From the IMG/VR virus record IMGVR_UViG_3300010370_000105, positions 1 to 35,919 of that record: a DNA stretch of 35,919 nt. The stretch is one strand, 5' to 3'. The position numbers were made by a program, and so were the translations under genes. The DNA comes from a virus. Each line of letters starts with the position of its first letter. The stretch's first letter is position 1. The notes below the pieces were generated by a model, which was given only the letters and a program-made list of their open reading frames with translations, had not been told where the DNA came from and did no database searches. Shown here in pieces: positions 5,640-7,657 of the stretch.

Positions 5640-6446
5640 TCATTTCCCAACACAGCATTTTGTTTTATCATAAGGAACATAAGAACTCACATATCGTTTA
5701 AATTGCATAATTAGGCTCTCTTGAGTTCTATCATATCCCAAAACATCTCTTATATACGAAAATCCTTTGGTAAGATAATAGTCATACATCTCTTCATAAT
5801 ATTTAATTTTATCTTTCAACTCTTCTTGACGCTCTAATTCTTTGAGTCTTTTGGATTCTTGTTTTTTGAAGTAAGCATCAAAGTTTTCAATTCTTCCGGG
5901 ATTCCATCCTTCTGGGATATCAGAATTTTTATCTATCTTTTTGTTTTCACGTAATTTCAAATTATGAATCCATCTAGTTCCATATTGAGAATTTCTTTCG
6001 CCTTGTTGATGTTTAATTTCTTTAAGTTTTTTCTTCTGATTTTTTCTTGCTTCAGGAGTTCTTGCTGCCTCAACTGCCTTAGGTTGTATCAATCTTATTT
6101 TTTCTATATTCCTTTCTTTATTTTTGTTCCAACTATCAATTTGTTTTTGTATTAGTTCTTTCTTCAATTGGGGGTCATTTTTTAATTTCTCTTGCAATCT
6201 GTTACTCCCAATTTTACCAAATATACTTTGCTTTTCTGCAATAAATTCTGCCTCGCTTATTTGCCCACTTAATCCTCTCCAAGCAACATAATCCTCAACA
6301 TTTCCCCAGAGTTGATAATTACAAAAATGATACATTGCGTGTTGGGTTACTGTAACTTCAACTAAATTCTCCCTAGCATCTCCACCTCCCATATATCTTG
6401 GGACAATATGATGCTTATGCATTAAAGGACTTTTTTCACAGTCCAT
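5640..6446 (-). CDS. HNH homing endonuclease
   Basis: A 268-residue free-standing HNH endonuclease. The N-terminal nuclease site reads HKHHIVPRYMGGGDARENLV, with histidines and the downstream TQHAMYHF as metal and catalytic residues. The middle is a long basic helical region. GERNSQYGTRWIHN and IPEGWNPGR form the DNA-binding motif seen in many phage HNH and GIY-YIG enzymes. It has a strong Shine-Dalgarno, AAGGAG, 7 nt before ATG. The gene interrupts the tRNA island and has the same control module as the genes at 10626 and 27270: dyad arm, terminator, TATAAATA, second dyad arm. It probably spreads by cleaving alleles that lack it. Confidence 0.88.
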   Translation of the reverse strand: MDCEKSPLMHKHHIVPRYMGGGDARENLVEVTVTQHAMYHFCNYQLWGNVEDYVAWRGLSGQISEAEFIAEKQSIFGKIGSNRLQEKLKNDPQLKKELIQKQIDSWNKNKERNIEKIRLIQPKAVEAARTPEARKNQKKKLKEIKHQQGERNSQYGTRWIHNLKLRENKKIDKNSDIPEGWNPGRIENFDAYFKKQESKRLKELERQEELKDKIKYYEEMYDYYLTKGFSYIRDVLGYDRTQESLIMQFKRYVSSYVPYDKTKCCVGK

Positions 6447-6635: not shown

Positions 6636-6728
6636 TTAAGAACCCTCCAGGTTTGAGCATCGTTGAGAGGCTTAGGAGGGGCGGGACTTACATAAGATTT
6701 GGACTCTTAATGCCCATCTAAGAACCAA
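6636..6728 (-). ncRNA. Unassigned transcribed segment between promoter P4 and tRNA-Arg
   Basis: It lies directly behind P4 and continues into tRNA-Arg. It can form CCCTCC/GGAGGG and a TAAGA/TCTTA hairpin with loop GTCCAAA. That hairpin would look like a Trp anticodon arm (CCA), but the acceptor, D- and T-arms do not fit. It may be a degraded tRNA gene or a structured leader. Confidence 0.3.
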
Positions 6729-6964: not shown

Positions 6965-6965
6965 T

Positions 6966-7318
6966 CCGGAACACGAGCCTCGAACTCGTAAGGGCACTGC
7001 CCGACGGATTTTACTTACCACTATGGTTTTCACCACCATTTTGAATGTTTGTGGTCTGGACTATGCCTTCACCATTTGCTAAATGCAATTAGGTGGGTGA
7101 TTATAGTCTCTACACGTTTTGCAATTTCTAGATAATTCCAACCCTTTCTAGAAGCACATTGGGTAGCCGTTGTCTTTCCAACTGTCTTGCAACTTCGCTC
7201 GGCGTTGGCATCAGCATTACCAGTTAAGCGTTCACCGAATTTACACCTTACTACTTACTCGTTTCCAAGTAAGCGACCCATTCGAGTCCGTTGTGTTTAC
7301 CATTTTCACCAGTTCCGG
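6966..7318 (-). tRNA. tRNA-Leu(UAA) interrupted by a group I intron
   Basis: Exon 1 is 7318-7285 and exon 2 is 7013-6966. Joined, they make an 82-nt tRNA. The acceptor CCGGAAC/GTTCCGG is perfect and the D-loop has GG. The anticodon stem ACGGA/TCCGT has loop CTTAAAA (anticodon UAA). The variable arm is long (CGGGC...GCCC). The T-stem ACGAG/CTCGT has loop TTCGAGG, and the discriminator is A. Exon 1 ends in U33, and the intron ends in G, as group I introns require. The precursor starts about 6 nt downstream of promoter P7. It decodes UUA, a frequent codon in this AT-rich genome. Confidence 0.85.
7014..7284 (-). other. Group I intron in tRNA-Leu(UAA), 271 nt, no ORF
   Basis: P1 is visible as exon GACT paired with internal guide GGTC, with U-G at the splice site. 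P2 is an 8-bp hairpin closed by a GAAA loop (7273-7266 with 7261-7254). P7 strands GACTAT and ATAGTC (7108-7103 and 7064-7059) sit in the conserved contexts GTAGAGACTATAATC and GGCATAGTCCAGACC. A P8 hairpin (CACC...GGTG) lies between the P7 strands, and P9 follows as ATGGT/ACCAT. The last nucleotide is G. It carries no endonuclease ORF. The insertion point is U33/U34, close to the position of the cyanobacterial and plastid tRNA-Leu intron. Confidence 0.83.
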
Positions 7319-7330
7319 GTGAATAAGACA

Positions 7331-7359
7331 ATCATAAGACCAAAGCCTCAGATTGTCAA
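7331..7359 (-). promoter_or_regulatory. Sigma70-type promoter of the split tRNA-Leu (P7)
   Basis: TTGACA at 7359-7354, a 17-nt spacer, TATGAT at 7336-7331. The spacer sequence is the same as in P10 and nearly that of P9, showing recent duplication. Confidence 0.87.
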
Positions 7360-7360
7360 G

Positions 7361-7515
7361 GGGATGGGAGAGATCCATGCAATGAAACCTAAAGCAACAT
7401 AAGTTATAGACAGGTTTCAAATCAACTTATGCGCGGGACTTTTCACTCTCCCTTTTTCAAGTAGGTTTTCTGTTGCTTACCCTTTAAAACCCACTACAAA
7501 ATGGATAAGCAGATG
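7361..7515 (-). ncRNA. Structured RNA with two candidate H-type pseudoknots
   Basis: There is no tRNA fold or convincing ORF. Pseudoknot 1: 7510-7503 pairs with 7482-7475 and 7494-7486 with 7469-7461. Pseudoknot 2: 7431-7424 pairs with 7405-7398 and 7418-7412 with 7390-7384. In both, the strands alternate S1-S2-S1'-S2'. A 7-bp stem, 7452-7446 with 7372-7366, encloses the second pseudoknot. It occupies a position between island promoters P8 and P7 that other units give to a tRNA. Identity unknown. Confidence 0.5.
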
Positions 7516-7518
7516 ACA

Positions 7519-7536
7519 ATCATAAGAGATTGTCAA
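7519..7536 (-). promoter_or_regulatory. Deleted promoter copy P8 (6-nt spacer)
   Basis: TTGACAATC and TATGATTGTC are both present, but only 6 nt separate the boxes instead of 17, an 11-bp deletion. It should not work as a sigma70 promoter, while the GACAATC/GATTGTC dyad is intact. Confidence 0.75.
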
Positions 7537-7537
7537 T

Positions 7538-7619
7538 ACTCCCGACAGGTCCTGCCCCTGCACGCTCTTACGAGCACGGCATTTTGAGTGCCACATGTCT
7601 TATATTCCATCACGGGAGC
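7538..7619 (-). tRNA. tRNA-Leu(CAA), with non-canonical T-loop
   Basis: Acceptor GCTCCCG/CGGGAGT with one terminal G-U. The anticodon stem TGGCA/TGCCG has loop CTCAAAA, giving CAA for UUG codons. The long variable arm is GCTC-GTAA-GAGC, as expected for Leu. The T-stem GCAGG/CCTGT has loop GGCAGGA rather than TTCRANY, and the D-loop lacks GG. 82 nt with discriminator A, directly abutting the next promoter copy. Confidence 0.75.
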
Positions 7620-7628
7620 AATAAGACA

Positions 7629-7657
7629 ATCATAAGACAAAAGCCTCAGATTGTCAA
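7629..7657 (-). promoter_or_regulatory. Sigma70-type promoter of tRNA-Leu(CAA) (P9)
   Basis: TTGACA at 7657-7652, a 17-nt spacer, TATGAT at 7634-7629, with the GACAATC/GATTGTC dyad. The tRNA 5' end lies 10 nt downstream of the -10. Confidence 0.87.

Follow-up and report, generated by a model that had tools for sequence, protein, structure and literature searches.

In cyanobacteria and plastids, the tRNA-Leu(UAA) gene, trnL(UAA), is interrupted by an intron inserted between U34 and A35. For phages, a 2014 review placed all introns then known in protein genes, despite the many tRNA genes that phages carry (PMC3984707). Devoto et al., 2019 described introns in the tRNAs of Lak megaphages, to their knowledge the first, and called them "enigmatic", apparently without assigning them to a ribozyme class (PMC6784885). 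Apart from a 58-bp insertion in a tRNA-Ser of the lactococcal phage L47 (PMC3888941), which is not a group I intron because it is too short, this is the only report of phage tRNA introns as such that our literature search returned. In the literature outside subscription journals we found no description of phage tRNA introns as group I, a weak absence.

Here we describe a tRNA-Leu(UAA) gene split by a group I intron in a viral contig of 35,919 nt (IMG/VR record IMGVR_UViG_3300010370_000105), the whole of which is referred to as the window; all window features given below lie on the minus strand. The contig carries T4-like genes for DNA polymerase, UvsX, helicase and NrdA/NrdB. The DNA polymerase shares 68% identity with that of the freshwater Synechococcus phage S-SRM01, and the abiF RNA and tRNA-Arg that neighbour the split gene resemble those of S-SRM01 and B23. 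The contig is a freshwater-type cyanomyophage.

With introns allowed, ARAGORN calls a single split tRNA in the whole window, tRNA-Leu(taa) at c[6965,7318], with a 271-nt intron and the junction ggact/taaaa; in its default mode, without introns, it calls no tRNA at 6965-7318. The 5' exon (7285-7318) comprises positions 1-33 and ends in ACGGACU, the 3' exon (6965-7013) extends from U34 to the discriminator A73 with no encoded CCA, and the predicted spliced junction joins ...CGGACU to UAAAAUCC. Folded without constraints, the spliced RNA, 83 nt long, adopts a full class-II cloverleaf (z-score -2.57) in which the acceptor, T and anticodon stems are completely paired; the first pair, C1-G72, is unusual. 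The first-pass annotation of this DNA had proposed that removal of a 271-nt segment leaves a complete leucine tRNA, and both the intron-mode call and the unconstrained cloverleaf agree. Its intron and junctions were placed correctly, while the 3' end of the gene is better set one base further, at 6965. The observation is real and is confirmed to the base, both for the extent of the intron and for its insertion between U33 and U34. Of the leucine codons counted in 16 window ORFs, 25% are UUA, the codon that this tRNA would read.

The intron (7014-7284) has the predicted anatomy of a group I ribozyme. Its internal guide GGUC (7275-7278) forms P1 with the exon sequence GACU (7288-7285), placing a U33.G pair at the 5' splice site, and the same P1 is found in all three close relatives, namely the window and two contigs considered below, L007 and L252. 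P2 (7253-7274) is a hairpin of 9 bp capped by a GAAA tetraloop, paired in all three and covarying in the family. The 5' strand of P3, GGUG (7247-7244), is followed by J3/4 and the 5' strand of P4, UCGGUG (7238-7233), which together span 7233-7247; the 3' strand of P4, CGCCGA, lies at 7199-7204. P5 is reduced to 2 bp and a small hairpin, and P5a-d are absent. P6 has an enlarged P6a-c extension (7113-7198), within which we propose an inner ACCC/GGGU pseudoknot that is invariant among the three cyanophages. The 5' strand of P7, GACUA (7104-7108), is the predicted guanosine-binding site; it is followed by the 3' strand of P3, CACC (7096-7099), by P8 (7095-7092 with 7073-7070) and by the 3' strand of P7, UAGUC (7059-7063). 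The element closes with P9 (ACCAC/GUGGU), P9a with a GAAA loop and the terminal omega-G at 7014 (together 7014-7055). The P7/P3 core and P4, P6 and P8 thus occur in canonical order, with crossing P3 and P7 pairs. P10 would be weak, with about 2 pairs by inspection. The first-pass annotation listed a U-G pair in P1, a GAAA-capped P2, conserved P7 strands and a terminal G, all of which are present.

Comparative evidence supports this structure. In an alignment of 46 introns covering P2, P4, P5, P6, P7, P8, P9 and P9a, the proposed helices are 94.3% paired, compared with 78.4% in shuffles and 30-43% when partners are slid, covariation is 0.467 against 0.162 in shuffled alignments, and 24 of 39 pairs show double-sided changes. 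These include P4 (99.3% paired, four double-changed pairs), P8 (100%, three) and P9a (99.6%, four). Both P7 strands are invariant in all 46 introns; P7 is therefore conserved and uninformative by covariation. P3 was left out of the pair counts, since the window's group has one P3 pair fewer and the alignment is out of register at that point; by inspection P3 covaries across the family. Among the window, L007 and L252 alone, compensatory changes occur in P6a, P6c, P8 and P9a, and the L007 intron has one P3 mismatch.

A covariance model, R1, built from 14 tRNA introns with the window and its close kin excluded, returns a single match in the whole 36-kb window (7254-7014, 112.7 bits, E = 7.9e-29), the 3' end of which is exactly the predicted terminal G. 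Alignment to the general group I model of Rfam, RF00028, extends from end to end, yet the score reaches no more than 20.4 bits (E = 0.015, 1.3 kb searched) against a gathering cut-off of 50, and a search of the window at Rfam gathering cut-offs gives no intron match. The Rfam covariance search, which the first-pass annotation had suggested for 7014-7284, thus stays below that cut-off. The cut-off is a database threshold and not a class feature of group I introns; a tRNA intron of phage Atu_ph07 also lies below it, at 48.9 bits. By its sequence and predicted fold, the 271-nt element is a group I intron that lacks none of the components of a self-splicing RNA. It is also putatively similar to the Azoarcus intron. 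As for subgroup, the absence of P5a-d is a criterion for IC3 (PMC11835236); the minimal P5 domain fits this description, and the intron is putatively most like IC3.

The same intron occupies the same site in L007, found by a pattern scan, and L252, found by a core-sequence scan, both cyanophage-like contigs with tRNA-Leu(UAA) split between positions 33 and 34, and it is therefore not an assembly artefact. A search with GGACTCRAATGGGTC, the window's P1 and exon motif, gave 60 contigs, of which only L007 and L050 have tRNA introns, the others being chance matches. Synechococcus phage B23 has an uninterrupted tRNA-Leu gene at the same site, and other cyanophages likewise give continuous tRNA-Leu matches. 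The introns are 89% (window and L007), 93% (window and L252) and 95% (L007 and L252) identical, whereas the corresponding tRNA exons are only 80%, 65% and 74% identical. Such a pattern points to a mobile intron, as expected if it had moved between already diverged genes, although stronger constraint on the intron might also account for it.

No endonuclease gene lies within the intron in any of the three genomes, but one lies near the split tRNA-Leu in each. In the window this is a free-standing homing endonuclease gene where the tRNA cluster that holds the split gene ends (5640-6446, 268 aa; PHROG 655 homing endonuclease, E = 1e-12). Its product is HNH-like and matches cyanophage endonucleases; it is a candidate mobility partner for the intron. 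L007 has a SegE-type GIY-YIG endonuclease nearby, and L252 encodes, at L252:239-967 and 85 nt downstream of the split gene, an HNH endonuclease that is 47% identical to the HNH protein inside a Bacteroidales tRNA-Leu(UAA) intron and 37% identical to the HNH protein inside a phage tRNA-Leu intron. The three belong to different families, and a comparison of the window and L252 endonucleases revealed no similarity. Mobilisation of the intron by such neighbours, as candidate partners, is plausible.

The split gene also appears to have its own promoter. Directly upstream lies the sigma-70-like sequence TTGACA-17-TATGAT (7331-7359, 11/12 match), within a 46-nt repeat, and the same 46-nt promoter element stands upstream of the split tRNA in L252. 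Between 6730 and 7971 there are five near-perfect TTGACA-17-TATRAT-like promoters (at least 11/12), about one per RNA gene of the cluster, most of them inside the 46-nt repeat with its GACAATC...GATTGTC inverted repeat; at a looser threshold, 12 sites are observed and 4.7 expected. The cluster has other features of note. An abiF RNA (RF03085, 52 bits) lies at 6643-6679, with a similar element at 184,052 in S-SRM01. An RNA-like element at 7368-7521, closed by a GGGAGAG/CTCTCCC stem and perhaps containing an H-type pseudoknot, has a fold z-score of only -1.5, no Rfam match and no relative among the loci compared. A probable second tRNA-Leu, with anticodon CAA, lies at about 7545-7640; it is intact by eye and is called by neither ARAGORN nor Rfam.

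The first-pass annotation considered self-splicing introns rare in phage tRNA genes, a view that the wider survey does not bear out. Scanning IMG/VR with the 19-nt P7-P9 motif ATAGTCCAGACCACAAACA, and correcting junctions to the terminal G, we could assign at least 70 split tRNA genes in phage records (not dereplicated, and biased by the motif): at least 45 for Leu(UAA), at least 12 for Arg(UCU), at least five for Met/Ile(CAU), and others. A second core motif, the cyanobacterial-type P4 motif GGCAATCCTGAGCCAA, gave more: at least 120 matches in viral contigs, which include numerous further phage introns, some in tRNA genes and some in protein genes. None among the matches listed was recognised as the cyanobacterial trnL type. 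An unannotated 205-nt tRNA intron is present in a 735-kb huge phage, and in the isolate Atu_ph07 a 278-nt tRNA-Leu intron, likewise unannotated, lies beneath a predicted protein; the paper on Atu_ph07 reports 33 tRNAs, and the word intron is absent from its main text (PMC6102473). In bacterial genomes the same intron family occurs in Leu, Arg(UCU) and Arg(CCU) tRNA genes. Among the matches listed, insertion between positions 33 and 34 is found at at least 15 assigned phage loci, together with the window and L252, as against one of 94 assigned bacterial loci. Among the bacterial cases assigned, this site occurs only in Nomurabacteria, of which two further members look similar.

Several individual loci from this survey are worth recording. 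In Lak-B1, a Gln-like tRNA (L442:1319-1636; MK250020, near 412,200) is split by a group I-type intron with the P7 strands AGAGACTA...ATAGTCC. If the U.G rule holds for its 5' site (CUCU with GGAG), splicing would create the anticodon CUA, that of an amber suppressor; ARAGORN calls it Ser(CGA). Lak-B1 recodes TAG, and splicing could gate that recoding. Two group I introns apparently interrupt the tRNA-Leu(UAA) gene both in Lak-B1 (L433:2672-3415) and in Lak-C1 (L434:2673-3407), one in the D-loop (GGT/...TTTTTG/AGACAC) and one between U34 and A35; default tRNA finding reports nothing there. In two further loci (L038:2581-3190 and L054), the P6 region of the tRNA-Leu intron has three hairpins resembling tRNA T-arms, with GTTCGATTC-type loops. 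R1 matches in S-SRM01 were rejected as tRNA introns, being located in the psbA region; there, at 209,054-209,709 (L446), two group I introns have endonuclease genes alongside, and the R1 match is weak.

Based on these observations, we propose with considerable confidence that the window carries a self-splicing group I intron, most like IC3, that has probably been spread by free-standing homing endonucleases encoded nearby. The pre-tRNA would be transcribed from its own sigma-70-type promoter. GACU, from the 3' end of the anticodon stem and the loop, would pair with the intron guide GGUC to form P1, and a guanosine bound in P7 would attack after U33. In the second step, the freed U33 would attack the junction behind the terminal G, and ligation of U33 and U34 would yield a normal tRNA-Leu that reads UUA. 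Spread between phage tRNA-Leu alleles would most likely occur by recombination started by the homing endonucleases that lie near tRNA clusters.

A decayed, non-splicing intron in a tRNA-Leu pseudogene might be suspected from the low RF00028 score and the unusual C1-G72 pair. Yet every core helix is intact, with compensatory changes, the acceptor, T and anticodon stems are fully paired, a strong promoter is retained and both exons and the intron are kept in three genomes, so that decay seems to us highly unlikely. Vertical descent, with an intron merely more constrained than its exons and no recent horizontal movement, is harder to dismiss, as a catalytic RNA is constrained and the window and L252 are related phages that have promoter repeats in common. 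However, it would leave tRNA exons, normally highly constrained, at 65-80% identity beside introns at 89-95%, and the same intron clade occupies different isoacceptors; we consider it unlikely, though not negligible.

The first-pass annotation also suggested that the intron could record an exchange with cyanobacteria, which would derive the intron from the ancient trnL(UAA) intron. The two share the same tRNA and the tRNA-inserted bacterial type, the host is cyanobacterial, and the insertion does adjoin the cyanobacterial and plastid site, as that annotation stated. It nevertheless falls one nucleotide before it. In a tree of core columns, a quick one with many weak forks on which we rely only for the unity of this clade, the intron belongs to a clade of 12, all from phages (SH-aLRT 99), 11 of them inserted between positions 33 and 34 in tRNAs with anticodons UAA, CAU and UUU; its nearest relatives come from phages and lie in tRNAs for Leu, Met/Ile and Lys. 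The row entered for the Anabaena trnL intron lies outside this clade on a long branch; it and the Azoarcus row serve as leads only. Furthermore, no cyanobacterial genome appears among the matches listed for at least 119 motif-bearing bacterial loci. Within the loci covered, exchange with cyanobacteria thus finds no support, and we regard such an origin as very improbable.

The self-splicing, mobile intron that we favour may belong to a broader pattern. U33 is near-universal in tRNAs, and an intron specialised at this position would therefore find a splice site in almost any tRNA gene. Tentatively, and with less assurance than for the window itself, we suggest that a phage lineage specialised between positions 33 and 34 might move among isoacceptors (Leu UAA, Met/Ile CAU and Lys UUU) and among phages via free-standing endonucleases, and that phages could be a main reservoir of bacterial tRNA introns. 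In any case, that many phage tRNA genes hold group I introns runs against the 2014 view of introns avoiding such genes. Default tRNA finders and the general Rfam model overlook such introns, which is why they have been missed; therefore, inventories of phage tRNAs, counts of suppressor tRNAs and codon arguments drawn from default annotation are incomplete. Splicing may also be a control point for phage tRNA supply.

The intron of the window is not alone in being carried by a phage. Like it, the group I introns of phage mRNAs (T4 td, nrdB and nrdD, Twort, cyanophage psbA and crAss-like dnaB) are phage-borne and probably mobile with homing endonucleases, and the crAss-like dnaB introns (L003 and L004) match R1; in contrast, they are inserted in protein genes. 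Lak megaphages also have phage tRNA genes with introns, and the Lak-B1 introns that we examined have group I signatures, although the phages, tRNAs and sites differ and the Lak introns are more diverged. Similarly, Microcoleus phage My-WqHQDG (OR578706) is a cyanophage in which a 213-nt intron interrupts a tRNA within its anticodon loop (R1, 103 bits), the split gene having been deposited as a single 286-nt tRNA; that tRNA is tRNA-Arg(CCU), the site lies between positions 36 and 37 and the intron is a distant one. The bacterial tRNA group I introns (Leu UAA and Arg CCU/UCU; IC3, cyanobacterial and proteobacterial) are like that of the window in their core, in a short P5 without P5abc, in insertion into the anticodon loop, in the U.G pair at the splice site and in the terminal G, and the bacterial Leu and Arg introns have the same 19-nt P7-P9 motif. 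The window's intron differs from them in its enlarged P6, with a possible inner pseudoknot, in being borne by a phage and in its site between U33 and U34, which for the cyanobacterial and plastid trnL(UAA) intron is U34 and A35.
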